Below are positions 37,864-45,581 of a DNA stretch of 64,000 nt, piece after piece; positions within the stretch are counted from its first letter, which is position 1, and the number at the start of each line of letters is the position of its first letter. The stretch comes from Syntrophaceae bacterium (lineage in GTDB: Bacteria; Desulfobacterota; BSN033; UBA1163), in assembly GCA_013388635.1 (NCBI GenBank), contig JACAEX010000067.1:1-64000 (forward strand), given 5' to 3'. The notes below the pieces were generated by a model, which saw only the letters and a list, made by a program, of their open reading frames with translations, searched no databases and was not told where the DNA came from. The translations under genes and the position numbers were made by a program.

Positions 37864-37970
37864 GGTAAATTCACGAAACCCGAAACGAGCCCGAGTGTTC
37901 AAAATAATAATGACCCAAACGGATAAGATAGTTTTGAATTTCGATGCTTGGATTTCGGATTTTTATAGGG
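37864..37970. repeat. Family A intergenic repeat, copy 4
   Basis: Left arm taaattcacgaaacccgaaa, right arm gaatttcgatgcttggattt followed by cggatttttatagg. It fills the gap between the ACT gene and a small conserved-looking gene. Confidence 0.55.
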
Positions 37971-37976
37971 GATTTT

Positions 37977-38261
37977 ATGGAAAAAGCACTTGAGAGATTG
38001 GCTGAGCAGATCCTTTCTTTCGATGAGGCCTCCCTTGCCAACCTGAGGGAGAAGTACCGGTTGAGGATTGAGGATTTTGATGGCACAAAGGATTGGGAGA
38101 GGGCGGTCATCATTTACTGCTTGATCAATGCGGTCAGCATGAAGAACACCCTCTTTAACGAAAATGTACTAAAGAGGATGAAGGAGAGGGAACGGGAGTC
38201 ATCCCGGTCCGGCCCCCGGGGTAAAAGGCAAGAGCGTCCTGATTTGAAGCGAATCAAATAA
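37977..38261 (+). CDS. Small helical protein of unknown function (94 aa)
   Basis: I do not recognise this protein. It has 94 residues: a mostly helical, acidic first half (LAEQILSFDEASLANLREKY) with a WERAVIIYCLINAVSMKN segment, then a strongly basic disordered tail (SRSGPRGKRQERPDLKRIK). The tail suggests nucleic-acid or ribosome binding, but this is a guess. ATG 37977 has AGGGGA upstream and regular codon use. It follows the ACT gene in the same direction, with a family A repeat in between. Confidence 0.6.
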   Translation: MEKALERLAEQILSFDEASLANLREKYRLRIEDFDGTKDWERAVIIYCLINAVSMKNTLFNENVLKRMKERERESSRSGPRGKRQERPDLKRIK

Positions 38262-39373: not shown

Positions 39374-40279
39374 ATGGCCTTTCGTCCTTCTTACCTCAGC
39401 CTTTTCGAGAAAGGGGAGTTGAAGAGACGAATCAGCCGGCTTGAGGAGTTCCTTCGAGAATGTCGGCTCTGCCCGAGGGAGTGTCGGGTCGACCGCTCGA
39501 ATGGAGAGCTGGGCTACTGTGGAGCTCCCTCAGAGCTGATGGTCTCGAGCGCTTTTCCCCATTTTGGCGAGGAGCCCCCCCTGGTCGGGCGTCACGGTTC
39601 GGGAACGATCTTCCTCACCCACTGCAACCTTCGCTGCGTCTTCTGCCAGAATTATGACATCAGCCATTTTGGCAGGGGTGAACGGATCACCTCCTCTGAG
39701 ATGGCACGGGCTATGGTGAGACTTCAGGAGATGGGCTGTCACAACATCAACTTCGTCACCCCCACCCACTATGCCCCTCAGATCGTCGCCTCCCTTTTAG
39801 AGGCGATTGAGATGGGGCTTCGGCTGCCCCTCGTGTACAACTGCTCTGGATACGAATCGATAGAGGTGATCCAGCTCTTGGAGGGGGTGATCGATATCTA
39901 CATGCCGGATGCAAAATATATGGATCCGAAATTTTCAGAGAAGTTCTCCAATGCGCCAGACTACCCCGAGGTCTTAAGGAAGGTCCTGAAGGAGATGCAC
40001 CGTCAGGTGGGGGATCTGAAGATCAATGCCTCCGGGATTGCTGAAAGGGGCCTCCTGATCAGACACTTAGTGATGCCAAATGGCATCGCCTCTTCTGAGG
40101 CAGTCCTCAAGTTTATCGCTGAGGAGGTCTCTCCGCACTCCTATGTCAATATCATGGCACAATACCGGCCGGAGTATAAGGCGCATGAGTACCCGGAGAT
40201 CGACCATCGGGTCACCCATAAGGATTATTTGGAGGCCATCCAGATCGCAAAACGGTTCCGTCTCTATCGAGGGTTTTAA
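39374..40279 (+). CDS. Radical SAM protein, PflX/PFL-activase-like
   Basis: 301 aa. N-terminal cysteine cluster CRLCPRECRVDRS, and GYCG, then the radical SAM motif CNLRCVFCQNYDIS (CxxxCxxC, near residues 89-96). TPTHYAPQIV, IYMPDAKYMDP and GIAERGLLIRHLVMPNG match the COG1313 (PflX) family of iron-sulfur proteins, whose substrate is unknown. A glycyl-radical enzyme is not encoded next door. The ATG has GGGGAG upstream. It is likely transcribed alone or with the downstream gene (81 bp gap). Confidence 0.85.
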   Translation: MAFRPSYLSLFEKGELKRRISRLEEFLRECRLCPRECRVDRSNGELGYCGAPSELMVSSAFPHFGEEPPLVGRHGSGTIFLTHCNLRCVFCQNYDISHFGRGERITSSEMARAMVRLQEMGCHNINFVTPTHYAPQIVASLLEAIEMGLRLPLVYNCSGYESIEVIQLLEGVIDIYMPDAKYMDPKFSEKFSNAPDYPEVLRKVLKEMHRQVGDLKINASGIAERGLLIRHLVMPNGIASSEAVLKFIAEEVSPHSYVNIMAQYRPEYKAHEYPEIDHRVTHKDYLEAIQIAKRFRLYRGF

Positions 40280-40360
40280 CTCTTAGGCAGGGCTGGATCT
40301 GCGCATCACGGTAATCCATTCGAAATCATATCCAGGTCCATGCCTGTTAGAGGAGATCGA

Positions 40361-41248
40361 ATGGGATCAGACAAGATCCTGCGAGAGATCCGATCCCTTA
40401 AGAAAAGGGTTGAGCAGCTCTCCAAAGAGATTGAATCGATCAAGGCCGCTTCCTCGGAAGAGTCCTCCGTCGAGAAGATCCTCAGGATGAGAGGGATCGA
40501 GGTCTTCCGGAAAGACCCTAAGGATCGGCTCTTCTTTCCTCCTGATCTCTCTGTCTTTGACCAGACCCGATTCTATGAGATGATGAAGAGATACTCCTTT
40601 CGGCTCGTATTGAGAGATATGATCAAACATCAGGAGGGGTTTCGGGTTCCAGATCTGACGCACTACTGCTCACCAAGGGTGGCGAAGGGGTACTGTGAGG
40701 TGCTCTGTGAGGTGGGAGCGATCGTAAAAAATGGGAAGGAGAATTACCGCACCCGGGTCTCTCCTCTTTATAGTTTCGGTCCGACCCTGGAGTGGTTTAT
40801 CGCAGAGATGTTTAAAAGGGAATTTGCCTCGCCTGCGATTTACGGGGTGAACCTGAAGAAGACCGCCTCGGGTGGTGACTACGATGTCATCGCCTCGTGG
40901 AATCAAAGGCTGGTCTATGTCGAAGTGAAGTCTTCTCCACCGAGGGGCGTTGAACCGAGCGAGATCTCCACATTCTTTTCCAGAATGGAAGACCTCCTGC
41001 CGGAGGTGGCCATCCTCTTCAACGATACCCAGCTCAGGATGAAGGATAAGCTGGTCGTGATGTTTGAGGAGGAATTGGAGAGGAGGTACGGGAACGAGTC
41101 AGGGACCCTTTATCCCGTCAAAAGGCTGGTGGAGGAACTCTTTCATGTCCGGCATCGCCTCTTCATTGTGAACAGCAAGAAGGATGTGGTTGAGAATTTC
41201 CAGACCTGTCTCAAAGATTATTTAAGATACATAGGAGGAATGCCGTGA
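40361..41248 (+). CDS. Uncharacterised protein with coiled coil and PD-(D/E)XK nuclease-like motif
   Basis: 295 aa. Residues 1-35 form a charged coiled coil (LREIRSLKKRVEQLSKEIES); residues about 75-140 resemble a winged-helix (RFRLVLRDMI-like helix, DLTHYCSPRVAKGYCEVLCE); then GGDYDVIASWNQRLVYVEVK gives the D-x(n)-E-x-K pattern of restriction-endonuclease-like folds, with an upstream Glu (WFIAEMFKRE). Later, LLPEVAILFNDTQLRMKDK continues the fold. It could be a nuclease or a DNA-binding relative. ATG 40361 follows AGGAG (40351-40355); another ATG 21 bases upstream is less likely. The adjacent polX is suggestive of DNA repair. Confidence 0.6.
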   Translation: MGSDKILREIRSLKKRVEQLSKEIESIKAASSEESSVEKILRMRGIEVFRKDPKDRLFFPPDLSVFDQTRFYEMMKRYSFRLVLRDMIKHQEGFRVPDLTHYCSPRVAKGYCEVLCEVGAIVKNGKENYRTRVSPLYSFGPTLEWFIAEMFKREFASPAIYGVNLKKTASGGDYDVIASWNQRLVYVEVKSSPPRGVEPSEISTFFSRMEDLLPEVAILFNDTQLRMKDKLVVMFEEELERRYGNESGTLYPVKRLVEELFHVRHRLFIVNSKKDVVENFQTCLKDYLRYIGGMP

Positions 41249-41443: not shown

Positions 41444-43156
41444 ATGAAGAATAAAGAACTGGCTGACCTTTTTGGGAAGATGGCAGACATCTTGGAGTTT
41501 AAGAATGACAATCCCTTTAAGATCAGTGCCTACCGAAAGGCCTCCCGGATCATCGGCGATCTCACAGAGGATATTGAGGAGATTGCTGAGAGCGGAAAGC
41601 TCAAGGATGTCCCGGGGATCGGGCAGGGGATGGCTGAGAAGATTGTCGAATATCTGAAGACCGGAAAGGTTTCCAAATATGAGGAGGTGAAAAAAGGGGT
41701 ATCGGATGAGCTGATTGCCATCATGGAGATTCCTGGCATGGGGCCAAAGACCCTTTCGATGATCCATAAGGAGAAGGGGATCGGTAATCTCTCCGAACTG
41801 GAGAAGGCCTTGGAGGATGGGTCCCTGATCGGACTTCCTGGAATTGGTGAGAAGAAGGTCGAAAATATAAAACGGGGGATTCAGCTCCTTAAGCAGAGCA
41901 AGGGCAGGATGAGTCTGGGCATCGCCTTTCCTGTGGCCAGGCGCATTGTCCAGGCCCTGAGGGAGAAGACCGGATCACAAAAGATTGAGTGGGCAGGTTC
42001 GCTGCGAAGGATGCGGGAGAGTATCGGAGACATCGACATCCTGGCCACTGGCCCGGATCGAGAAAAGATCGTTCATACCTTCACCCATCTTCCCGAGGTC
42101 AGAGAGGTCCTGGCCTCTGGAGAGACGAAGGCCTCTGTGATTGTGGAGGGAGGCATCCAGATCGACCTCCGGGTCGTTGAGGAGGATTCCTACGGCGCAG
42201 CCCTTCAATACTTCACAGGATCGAAGGCTCATAACATCCATCTGAGAGGGATTGCTAAGACCAAAGGGATCAAGATCAACGAGTATGGAATTTTTAAGGG
42301 TGAGAAGAGGATCGGAGGAAAAGAAGAAGAAGATGTCTACCGTGGCCTCGGAATGGAGTGGATCGAACCCGAACTCCGGGAGGACCGCGGAGAGATTGAG
42401 GCCGCTCAGGAGAGGCGACTCCCCAAACTGGTTGAAGAACCCCAAATCAAAGGAGACCTTCACGTCCACTCAAAATGGAGCGATGGGACGTCGTCCATTG
42501 AAGAGATCGCCCGAGCGGCTCAGAAGAGAGGCTATCAATACGTGGCGATCTGTGACCACTCGAAGTCCCTGAAGATCACCCATGGTCTTGATGAGTCGAG
42601 ATTGATGAAACAGATGGAGGAGATCGATCGGATCAATGAAAGATTGAAGGGGTTCCAGATTCTCAAAGGGACAGAGGTCGATATCCTCAGCGATGGAAGA
42701 CTGGACTTATCGGAAAAGGTGTTAGAGAAACTGGATCTTGTGGTCGCAGCCGTTCACAGCGGGTTCAAACAGGACAGGGAGAGGATCACAAAAAGGATCG
42801 TGCGAGCTTTGGAAAATCCCCTCGTCCATATCTTCGCCCACCCCTCCGGACGGTTGTTAGGAGCGAGGGACCCCTATGAGGTTGAGATCGAGGAGGTGAT
42901 GGAGGCTGCGAGACGATACGGAAAGGCATTGGAGATCAATGCCTACTTTGAGCGGCTCGATCTCGATGACATCCGCTGTCGCAAAGCAAAAGAGATGGGG
43001 GTCCGGATGGCCATCGGGACCGACGCTCACCACCTCGACCAGATGTGGATGATCAGTCTGGGAGTGGCCGTTGCCAGACGGGGATGGCTCGAAAGCAGAG
43101 ATGTGCTCAACACCATGTCCCTCAAAGAAATCCTAAAATGGTGCCAGAGGAAATAA
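41444..43156 (+). CDS. polX: DNA polymerase/3'-5' exonuclease PolX
   Basis: 570 aa. N-terminal 8-kDa-like domain with helix-hairpin-helix (DVPGIGQGMAEKIVEYL), fingers/palm of a family X polymerase with GSLRRMRESIGDIDIL (catalytic Asp pair) and IQIDLRV (third Asp), then a C-terminal PHP domain: DLHVHSKWSDG, AICDHSKS, HIFAHPSGRLLG and IGTDAHHLDQM supply metal ligands. Bacterial PolX fills gaps in base-excision repair and proofreads with the PHP nuclease. ATG 41444 follows GGGAG; the longer frame starts within the repeat and is rejected. Same orientation as the PD-(D/E)XK-like gene. Confidence 0.92.
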   Translation: MKNKELADLFGKMADILEFKNDNPFKISAYRKASRIIGDLTEDIEEIAESGKLKDVPGIGQGMAEKIVEYLKTGKVSKYEEVKKGVSDELIAIMEIPGMGPKTLSMIHKEKGIGNLSELEKALEDGSLIGLPGIGEKKVENIKRGIQLLKQSKGRMSLGIAFPVARRIVQALREKTGSQKIEWAGSLRRMRESIGDIDILATGPDREKIVHTFTHLPEVREVLASGETKASVIVEGGIQIDLRVVEEDSYGAALQYFTGSKAHNIHLRGIAKTKGIKINEYGIFKGEKRIGGKEEEDVYRGLGMEWIEPELREDRGEIEAAQERRLPKLVEEPQIKGDLHVHSKWSDGTSSIEEIARAAQKRGYQYVAICDHSKSLKITHGLDESRLMKQMEEIDRINERLKGFQILKGTEVDILSDGRLDLSEKVLEKLDLVVAAVHSGFKQDRERITKRIVRALENPLVHIFAHPSGRLLGARDPYEVEIEEVMEAARRYGKALEINAYFERLDLDDIRCRKAKEMGVRMAIGTDAHHLDQMWMISLGVAVARRGWLESRDVLNTMSLKEILKWCQRK

Positions 43157-43361
43157 GGTGGATAAAGGGATAGGGTGATGGGGAGATCAGGTGAAAAAAG
43201 GAGTGGATTGGTTGATGGTAGATTTCAGATGCTGGAATTTGGTAAAAGTGCTTGTCTTTAGAGTACTTACTGCCGACATAAAATAGAAATGCTCTTGATG
43301 TTATTTTCGAGTAATGCAATAATGAAATCAACAAGCCTCTGATACTCCGGGGAATAATTTG

Positions 43362-43685
43362 ATGAAGATGAAAAAGAAGGTTCGTCAACTTATCGATTGT
43401 CTGCTTGCCTACGAACCCGAACGGTTATATCTTTTTGGTTCCTGGGCTCGGGGGGAAGAGGATGAATTAAGCGATATGGACCTCGTCGTGATCAAGAGCA
43501 CACCTTCTCCTTTCTTTGCACGTTTGGAGGAAGTTTCTGATTTCATTCCTCCGGAGGTAGGAGGATTGGATATCTTGGTGTATACCCCGGAGGAATTTGC
43601 AGAGATGTTAAAGGAAGGGAATGCTTTTGCAGAAATGATTGCAGAGGAGGCTTCTCTTATTTATGATCGGCAAACGAAAATCTGA
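43362..43685 (+). CDS. MNT-type nucleotidyltransferase (antitoxin-like)
   Basis: 107 aa minimal nucleotidyltransferase. LFGSWARGEEDELSDMDLVV carries the GSx10DxD signature. In HEPN/MNT toxin-antitoxin systems the MNT protein neutralises the HEPN RNase, in studied cases by adding AMP to it. It overlaps the HEPN gene downstream by 23 bases, a typical arrangement. The start could be ATG 43362 or 43368. A weak promoter is suggested by TTGATG at 43295-43300 and AATAAT at 43318-43323. Forms one of two such pairs here. Confidence 0.82.
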   Translation: MKMKKKVRQLIDCLLAYEPERLYLFGSWARGEEDELSDMDLVVIKSTPSPFFARLEEVSDFIPPEVGGLDILVYTPEEFAEMLKEGNAFAEMIAEEASLIYDRQTKI

Positions 43686-44112
43686 AGCTAAACGCTGGTT
43701 TCAACAGGCCTATTATGATCTTCACGCGGCTCGCTGGAATATCAAGGGAGGATTCTACGATACAGCATGTTTTTTAGCGCAGCAGGCTGGTGAGAAAGCA
43801 CTGAAATCTCTTCTATATTATGAGGGAACACGGAGAATAGCACTGTTGACACACTCACTTGTTGAGATGATTCGAGAAGGAGAAAAAAGGGTGAAATCAT
43901 TGGCTCCTCTTTTAGATCAAGCACGGGAGCTTGACCTTCATTACATCCCCTCTCGTTATCCCAATGGGCTACCCAGTGGATATCCTCACCAGTTTTATGG
44001 GAAGAAAGTTGCCCAGGAAGCTGTGACTGCTGCTGAGAAAATTTTTTCAGCTATTCGGAGCTTTTATCAGACAAAGGAAGAAAAAGAAATTTTGCAGATC
44101 GACGAAAAGTAA
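43663..44112 (+). CDS. HEPN-domain protein (toxin-like), pair 1
   Basis: 149 aa from ATG 43663, preceded by GAGGAGGC. HEPN features: an N-terminal helix with AKRWFQQAYYDLHAARWN, CFLAQQAGEKALKSLLYYEG, then RRIALLTHSLVEMI, and DLHYIPSRYPNGLPSGYP, the Y-x-x-x-R-Y-P segment shared with pair 2. RIALLTH satisfies R(x5)H, the spacing of HEPN RNase motifs, but the following residues are S-L, not x-Y as in AMPylated toxins. Activity is therefore plausible, not proven. Partner is the overlapping upstream MNT gene. Confidence 0.78.
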   Translation: MIGKRKSEAKRWFQQAYYDLHAARWNIKGGFYDTACFLAQQAGEKALKSLLYYEGTRRIALLTHSLVEMIREGEKRVKSLAPLLDQARELDLHYIPSRYPNGLPSGYPHQFYGKKVAQEAVTAAEKIFSAIRSFYQTKEEKEILQIDEK

Positions 44113-44866: not shown

Positions 44867-45268
44867 TTATAGTTGTTCGATTTGGGATTCGGCCCAAGCT
44901 ACCACTGCCTCAGCAATTCGGAGGGCTTTCTTAAACTCTTCCTCAGTGACGGGTTCAAACGGACCTGGATATCTACTTTCCACAGAGTAATCGGTAAGCT
45001 CTGCCGAAGCCTTTATCTCTTCCGGTAGGATAATGCCTTGATTTTCGAGGAGGGTGATCAATTCAGCGATATCATGAACAAATCGAAAGGAAATTCCTCG
45101 TGCAAGGAGTACTGCTTTTAAGGCTTTTTCCACTGCCTGCTGGGTATCGAAACAGAGGTCTTCCCAAAGTACTTCCTCGGGCTTTGGTTGTTTTGACCGA
45201 ATGAGATTGCTTTTGGCTCTTGTTAACCAAACACGAGGTGTGCCAAGCTTGCTTAGGTCACGCGGCAT
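44867..45268 (-). CDS. HEPN-domain protein (toxin-like), pair 2
   Basis: 133 aa. Helices with VWLTRAKSNLIRSKQP and DLCFDTQQAVEKALKAVLLA are followed by RFVHDIAELITLLENQ and TDYSVESRYPG, the standard HEPN core. Here the R-to-H spacing is only two (RFVH), so the canonical R(x4-6)H RNase motif is not satisfied; it may be a non-catalytic or variant member. It overlaps the upstream MNT gene by 11 bases and faces pair 1. Confidence 0.78.
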   Translation of the reverse strand: MPRDLSKLGTPRVWLTRAKSNLIRSKQPKPEEVLWEDLCFDTQQAVEKALKAVLLARGISFRFVHDIAELITLLENQGIILPEEIKASAELTDYSVESRYPGPFEPVTEEEFKKALRIAEAVVAWAESQIEQL

Positions 45269-45581
45269 AAAGGACTCTTCCCTCTTTAAGTGCTGGTTGG
45301 ATCACCATCCCCACATGATCTCTAAATTGCTCTATATCATCTTCTGTAACAACGATAATATCTGCCGCAAAGCCCACTCCTATTAAATTGCGGTAAATAG
45401 TTTGTGCAGTCTTACGCCGGTGTCCTCCAGAAGCAATAACTACGAGAAGATCAATATCACTATCTGGCCCCATTTTTCCATGCGTAGCGGACCCGAATAA
45501 AATAATTTTTTTCGGGTTCACACATTGGACGATCCTTCGCACGGTCTCAGCTAAAATTTCATCCGTAAAAAGAATATCCAT
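45258..45581 (-). CDS. MNT-type nucleotidyltransferase, pair 2
   Basis: 107 aa. KKIILFGSATHGKMGPDSDI followed by DLLVVI is the GSx10DxD motif, with His replacing the usual Arg after GSA. The C-terminus has FRDHVGMVIQPALKEGRVLY as in the MJ0435/antitoxin-type family. It lies before the HEPN gene in the same operon. The two MNT proteins differ enough in sequence that a recent duplication is unlikely. Confidence 0.8.
   Translation of the reverse strand: MDILFTDEILAETVRRIVQCVNPKKIILFGSATHGKMGPDSDIDLLVVIASGGHRRKTAQTIYRNLIGVGFAADIIVVTEDDIEQFRDHVGMVIQPALKEGRVLYAA

Follow-up and report, generated by a model that had tools for sequence, protein, structure and literature searches.

Can2, Card1, Cdn1 and VC1899 are DUF1887 proteins (PF09002, Card1_endonuc), ancillary nucleases of type III CRISPR systems. 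The CARF domain of Can2 is given as residues 3-151 and its nuclease as residues 166-366, with E276 and D278 in the active site (PMC7969007), and Cdn1 is described as having a linker at residues 151-157, with E308, E310, E323 and K325 in the modelled metal and substrate site (PMC12825302). When cyclic oligoadenylate (cOA) binds to the CARF dimer of Can2 and Cdn1, the two nuclease domains change their arrangement and the site becomes complete (PMC7969007, PMC12825302). Makarova and colleagues report that in most CARF families the CARF domain is followed by a wHTH (PMC4012209). Another described arrangement of this kind is DUF4143 (PF13635), the C-terminal half of AAA-type ATPases, in which a wHTH is followed by a PD-(D/E)XK core.

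Here we compare with these systems a gene of a Syntrophaceae bacterium (assembly GCA_013388635.1), located on contig JACAEX010000067.1; the window referred to below is the whole stretch of DNA analysed, i.e., positions 1 to 64,000 of this contig. The initial annotation, made from the DNA letters alone, had proposed a new PD-(D/E)XK protein with a coiled coil and a winged-helix-like segment, belonging to no named family, lying 5' of polX and acting in repair or DNA defence.

The gene and its protein

In the window genome the candidate nuclease gene was found at a single place. Its plus-strand frame is open from 40340 to 41248 of the window, within which the ATG at 40361 looks like the better start, because AGAGGAGATCGAATG puts a Shine-Dalgarno-like stretch, AGAGGAGAT, immediately 5' of it. 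It is to be noted that the homologue starts were picked near the same point and thus offer no independent confirmation of this choice. The parts of the gene and its two immediate neighbours are collected in Table 1; the segment with the putative metal site, residues 171-190, reads GGDYDVIASWNQRLVYVEVK.

Table 1 Position of the candidate nuclease gene, its parts and its adjoining genes in the window
Feature	Position	Strand	Basis and remarks
Candidate nuclease gene	40361..41248	+	295 aa plus stop; ORF, homologues
N-terminal coiled-coil helix, residues 3-33	40367..40459	+	Helix in AlphaFold2 model; heptad spacing
Linker helix and short strand, residues 36-50	40466..40510	+	AlphaFold2 model, structure matches
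Winged-helix-like segment, residues 65-131	40553..40753	+	Model, structure matches, alignment; includes YSFRLxLRD (78-86)
Predicted PD-(D/E)XK core, residues 140-221	40778..41023	+	Helix-strand-strand-strand-helix-strand; model, structure matches
E144, acidic residue of first core helix	40790..40792	+	Invariant, 105/105 rows
D173-Y-D175, putative metal-site motif	40877..40885	+	105/105 rows; profile alignment; Can2 and Cdn1 papers
E188-V-K190, ExK motif	40922..40930	+	E in 105/105, K in 104/105 rows; Cdn1 paper
C-terminal extension, residues 222-292	41024..41236	+	Model, alignment; includes DTxLRxxDK (222-230)
Radical-SAM gene, directly upstream	39374..40279	+	Radical_SAM match; 22/59 loci
polX, downstream neighbour	41444..43156	+	NF006375, 557 bits; adjoins in 17/59 loci, 16 of them same-strand

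Conservation was read from a family alignment of 105 rows, which are not independent, as at least four genomes appear twice. The catalytic-type residues E144, D173, D175 and E188 are found in every row and K190 in all except one, in which it is replaced by T. This exception is a long-branch Nitrospirota member (L210:1250-2146), which has ExT (VEMTASPP) for ExK and sits at the end of the longest terminal branch in the gene tree; judging by this replacement, its activity has possibly been lost. A second signature, consisting of Y78-x-x-R81 and D222-T223-x-L225-R226-x-x-D229-K230, is invariant in the same alignment, save for K230 (104/105).

The N-terminal residues 3-33 of the window protein form one helix in the structural model, and hydrophobic residues at 6, 10, 13, 17, 20, 24 and 27 follow the 4-3 heptad spacing, in agreement with the coiled coil that was originally claimed. 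By eye, such a coiled coil is present in many members of the family and absent or unclear in several distant ones, of which L201, L202 and L207 start close to the linker; it therefore cannot be the general dimerisation element. The winged-helix-like segment was also borne out, since residues ~64-156 match ArsR/MecI-type regulators with Z-scores of 7-8 in VIA-align, a range that is weak alone and may reflect merely a common arrangement, and since the segment also falls inside the higher-scoring match to Can2 described below. In one homologue (L013:7974-9047; the same gene is in L046), the wing of this segment carries an in-frame insert of ~47 residues with a VIPAKAGIQ stretch, which we take to be typical of translated dispersed repeats; from its sequence, the insert looks like a repeat that came to lie in the gene and left the frame intact.

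Predicted structure and likeness to CARF nucleases

The AlphaFold2 model, computed with a 23-row alignment, had a pLDDT of 90.2 and a pTM of 0.84. Its core elements (H140-154, E159-166, E173-180, E183-190, H199-212 and E216-221) follow one another in the order alpha-beta-beta-beta-alpha-beta, i.e., a predicted PD-(D/E)XK fold with an E/D-x-D/E and E-x-K site. When the model was searched with Foldseek, all 10 matches at E <= 0.001 were chains of VC1899, Can2 or Cdn1. VIA-align gave its best match to Can2 (7bdv_B; Z 13.9, 194 aligned residues, rmsd 4.0), followed by Cdn1 (9u49; Z 12.6, 214 aligned, rmsd 3.9), VC1899 (1xmx; Z 12.3, 208 aligned, rmsd 4.1), Can1 (6sce; Z 11.0, 175 aligned, rmsd 4.2) and Card1 (6xl1; Z 9.5, 188 aligned, rmsd 5.4). 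AF1548 and AgeI matched more weakly (Z 7.6-7.7), and the winged-helix regulators came after the CARF nucleases in the same list (Z 7-8.2). In the BFVD structure search there was one match at E <= 0.001, and among the best 50 listed were generic nucleases with TM-scores of up to 0.55. The PD-(D/E)XK core of the initial annotation is indeed present in the predicted structure, and its D, E and K residues are indeed conserved in the homologues, as detailed above.

The matches to Can2, VC1899, Cdn1 and Card1 span model residues ~34-290, which correspond to the part of those enzymes downstream of their CARF domain. Where there is a single CARF, the first matched residue of the chain is 130-154, at the CARF end or in the linker, and that of the model is 34-36, within or just before the linker helix of the candidate nuclease; on the Can2 chain it starts at residue 140 and thus takes in the CARF end, the linker and the nuclease part. 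A CARF domain of ~150 residues at the N-terminus is absent from the model, as only ~33 residues, forming one helix, precede the matched part and leave no room for it. Since the match begins at the CARF end or linker and covers the wHTH plus nuclease layout, the candidate nuclease resembles the effector half of the CARF enzymes without the CARF sensor. The putative metal site also agreed in its spacing, in that D173, D175, E188 and K190 are separated by 2, 13 and 2 residues, exactly as are residues 308, 310, 323 and 325 of Cdn1 (PMC12825302). The counterparts of D173-Y-D175 are E276-x-D278 in Can2 and E308-x-E310 in Cdn1, and that of E188-V-K190 is E323-x-K325 in Cdn1. What is common to the candidate family and the DUF1887 nucleases is therefore the predicted fold, the metal-site spacing and a weak profile similarity; it differs from Can2 and Card1 in the missing CARF domain, in having D-x-D where the compared Can2 set has E-x-D, in the extra DTxLRxxDK, and in being clade-stable and having no Cas10 association. 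The Foldseek TM-scores to the Can2-type chains were low (0.3-0.5) and the identity in the structure matches was 8-15%, so that common descent with Can2 is not proven against a shared wHTH-nuclease layout.

Relationship to described families

Searches of Pfam, NCBIfam, PADLOC and PHROGs returned no significant family for the window protein (in PADLOC there were two weak matches, the better at E 0.019), and neither did a sequence search of the PDB or a profile search of PDB sequences. Specifically for PF09002, the window protein had no match at E <= 1, the family was not among the best 25 of 27 families listed for 23 family members, and a PF09002 search of its genome did not pick up the window gene at E <= 0.1. 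For DUF4143 (PF13635) the window protein likewise had no match at E <= 1; 9 of the 23 members showed weak matches (best E 0.0018), and the one with a known bit score, L047, reached 12.7 bits against a gathering score of 28.1 bits. No AAA ATPase domain was found in the candidate nuclease, either by Pfam or in the AlphaFold2 model.

Profile-profile comparison by hhalign, using the 105-row family alignment, gave 89.8% with DUF4143 (E 1.8e-6, 123 columns, winged helix and core in register; the DUF4143 set consisted of 22 rows screened by motif search), 60.5% with 16 Card1/Can2 sequences (E 8.4e-5, 107 columns) and 33.9% with UPF0102 (33 columns), and none of 60 column shuffles reached any of the three scores. 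The Card1 result varied with the sets compared: a narrower family alignment of 69 rows gave 2.4% against Card1, with the winged helix misaligned, and 0.2% against a second Card1-type set of six divergent sequences (L159, L184-L188), with which the 105-row family gave 0.7%. With UPF0102/YraN (PF02021), the candidate nuclease shares the short core motif G-x-x-D-x-I-A ... E-V-K, beyond which nothing aligns; a separate UPF0102 gene is also present in the window genome. CoCoNuTs, the coiled-coil nuclease tandems of type IV restriction, likewise have a coiled coil plus a nuclease, but they are described as linked to McrBC systems, and no such partner was recognised for the candidate nuclease.

As a structural control, the model of a whole DUF4143 protein was searched in the same way. 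Its matches were filled by ATPases, with no Can2-type row among the best 50 listed; this outcome was dominated by the ATPase half and says nothing on the nuclease half. Overall, the predicted structure favours Can2, whereas the sequence profiles favour DUF4143. As it has neither the CARF domain and PF09002 match of the one nor the AAA domain and PF13635 score of the other, the candidate family is placed in neither. In the open-licence literature on DUF4143, VC1899 and CARF-less, stand-alone or unnamed nucleases, as far as the accessible portions of the papers extend, nothing is evidently on this family. PD-(D/E)XK nucleases as such and a layout like that of Can2 are already known; what we did not find in the libraries or in those portions of the literature is a CARF-free, vertically inherited, clade-stable version. 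The unnamed family of the initial annotation has thus stood, in that none of the four family libraries searched names it, but its supposedly novel architecture has not: coiled coil aside, it is like that of the Can2/Card1 effector half (PF09002), and DUF4143 proteins have the same wHTH-nuclease layout in their C-terminal half.

Distribution and inheritance

A profile built from 23 members was searched against sampled genomes of two phyla, and the family was found in 72 of the 395 genomes of the window's phylum and in 61 of the 245 of the phylum to which L022, a locus titled Nitrospirota, belongs. The homologues collected by a scan of genome contigs with short exact peptide patterns had the organism titles Deltaproteobacteria, Thermodesulfobacteriota, Syntrophaceae, Syntrophobacterales and Nitrospirota/Nitrospiraceae, and in a few cases vaguer ones. 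A few hits were fragments or split genes (G091, G107, G209, G416 and G584). Three of these are gene fragments (G091:C148, G107:C20 and G584:C85), two with internal stops (G091 and G584), which suggest recent decay in single lineages.

In the set of 99 genomes used for the tests that follow, 28 GTDB families are represented at least twice, and presence was all-or-none in 26 of them. Outside the window's own family (f1), 35 of 36 within-family pairs were concordant, against a shuffle mean of 20.6, and this value was reached in none of 5000 shuffles. Cas10, subjected to the same test, was concordant in 24 of 36 pairs, with a shuffle mean of 22.2, and 1503 of 5000 shuffles reached the observed value; PF09002, over its cut-off in 3 of the 99 genomes, was too rare for the test (34 of 36 pairs, shuffle mean 34.3). 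Cas10 was scored in 26 genomes at E < 1e-15, a cut chosen since the E. coli control also matched the profile, with what we took for GGDEF proteins. There was no association of the family with Cas10 in these genomes, the latter being present in 12 of the 41 with the family and 14 of the 58 without it (p 0.65). In both the pair and the association tests G091 was counted as absent, notwithstanding the fragment that the profile search found there. The window genome itself carries a Cas10 gene on another contig (G000:C77:53066) and no PF09002 effector over the cut-off. Some known DUF1887 members are likewise reported not to be CRISPR-linked (PMC4012209).

The gene tree, made by a quick method and with some long branches, largely keeps GTDB families together, and the two phyla are split by one change with a support of 85, which is below the 95 mark. 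No match was found in viral contigs by the scan of contigs with short exact peptide patterns, nor in plasmids and phages by tblastn with the window protein, in collections that may contain few elements of these two phyla. This looks like a chromosomal gene with a long history of vertical inheritance and not like a mobile defence gene.

Genomic neighbourhood

Of 65 loci, 59 retained the target ORF after mechanical gene picking; the neighbour counts are lower bounds, as some loci are cut off by contig ends. The commonest neighbour is the radical-SAM gene directly upstream on the same strand (22/59), which in the window is presumably PflX/COG1313-like. In 16 loci polX follows immediately, in the same orientation; every one of these comes either from the window's own family or from one other family of its class. 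It is convergent in one Nitrospirota group (L229; L107 is the same genome), and short flanks add four more Nitrospirota genomes with polX (L108, L109, L111 and L114); L112, from the same part of the tree, has no polX within its flanks. Over the 99 genomes, polX was present in 29 of the 41 with the family and 19 of the 58 without it (p 0.0002), but outside f1 the figures were 13 of 25 and 19 of 57 (p 0.14), and counted by GTDB family the p value was 0.03; the 48 polX-positive genomes are 50 less two with fragments (G043 and G044), and one of them (G089) is under the curated cut-off. The polX adjacency noted initially thus holds in the window and is partly conserved elsewhere. As a defining partner polX was rejected, since the adjacency is local and the co-occurrence weakens outside f1; it remains a hint.

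In one locus (L226) a gene for a RarA-like AAA ATPase, under the NCBIfam cut-offs, overlaps upstream. Other neighbours elsewhere include ThiC, YjbQ, a bisphosphate nucleotidase, a CoA-transferase-like protein, CvpA (Colicin_V) and PspA; no cas gene and no recognised RNA-linked gene was among the annotated neighbours. The presence of polX in two lineages and of a RarA-like ATPase in one is a hint of repair, to which the radical-SAM neighbour, ThiC, YjbQ, bisphosphate nucleotidase and others do not point. Elsewhere in the window there are two MNT-HEPN gene pairs, each made up of NTP_transf_2 and HEPN, one at 43359-44112 on the plus strand and the other at 44867-45581 on the minus strand; such pairs are a kind known as toxin-antitoxin modules. 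A small gene at 37944-38261, of 105 aa and with no significant Pfam or NCBIfam match, is kept between an ACT-domain gene and a lytic transglycosylase gene in related genomes.

Discussion

For this family we have computed conserved catalytic residues, a predicted fold, the lack of room for a CARF domain, a clade-stable distribution and the absence of an association with type III CRISPR. Our best explanation, to which we give a probability of about 0.5, is an unnamed family of predicted nucleases with a nuclease half like that of Can2/Card1 but no CARF sensor, vertically inherited on the chromosome and not switched by cOA. In Can2 it is the CARF pair that joins two nuclease domains. We infer that the enzyme would act as a homodimer, held by the N-terminal coiled coil in those members that have one or by the winged-helix region, and that D173, D175, E188 and K190 would form a metal-dependent PD-(D/E)XK site, through which it would act as a nuclease. 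Having no cyclic oligoadenylate switch, it would either be constantly active, with a particular DNA (or RNA) structure as its target, or depend for its control on a partner or on the structure of the nucleic acid. As to its role, we tentatively put replication or repair of the chromosome first, with slightly less than even confidence, ahead of RNA processing and, further down, defence.

The most serious competitor is a kinship with the C-terminal half of DUF4143 proteins, of which the protein would be a stand-alone relative without the ATPase; its likeness to Can2 would then be due to the shared layout only. This would explain why the DUF4143 profile was the strongest match, aligned in register over winged helix and core, and why weak DUF4143 matches recur among the 23 members; it has to contend with the window protein having none at E <= 1, with a member whose score is less than half of that required, with the missing AAA domain, and with Can2, VC1899 and Cdn1 leading the structure search, albeit from lists that showed no solved DUF4143 structure and with a control model dominated by its ATPase. 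We consider it doubtful, and clearly less probable than the CARF-free, Can2-like reading. That the family processes RNA is less likely again: Cdn1 is described as a ribonuclease (PMC12825302) and Can2 as cutting both RNA and DNA (PMC7969007), but the annotated neighbours offer no recognised RNA-linked gene.

A defence nuclease was the other half of the original suggestion of repair or defence; it could be restriction-like, or else a type III CRISPR effector that has escaped recognition and partners a separate CARF protein. The nearest structures are mostly antiviral effectors and a different contig of the host genome carries a Cas10 gene; set against these are the clade-stable distribution with no Cas10 association, the lack of matches on plasmids, phages and viral contigs, the housekeeping neighbours where annotated, PADLOC without a significant match, and the gene tree. 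We therefore put defence low, as very improbable; the repair part of the suggestion is the likelier one. A bolder variant of the CARF-free reading is that the family represents an old housekeeping lineage, predating the present families of the two phyla, and the CARF-free chassis of Can2/Card1, which would today be a structure-specific chromosome-maintenance nuclease of an undescribed kind; the type III CRISPR effectors Can2/Card1 would then have been made by adding a cyclic-oligoadenylate sensor to it. We regard this as a long shot, somewhat less likely than RNA processing and a little less remote than defence.

Overall, the locus belongs to a family of predicted nucleases with invariant catalytic residues, spread over two phyla and unnamed in the four family libraries searched. 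Should descent account for its tie to Can2/Card1, the CARF-free enzyme would let the nuclease half be studied without the cOA switch, and the family would be a case of an immune effector domain common to an ordinary cellular gene.
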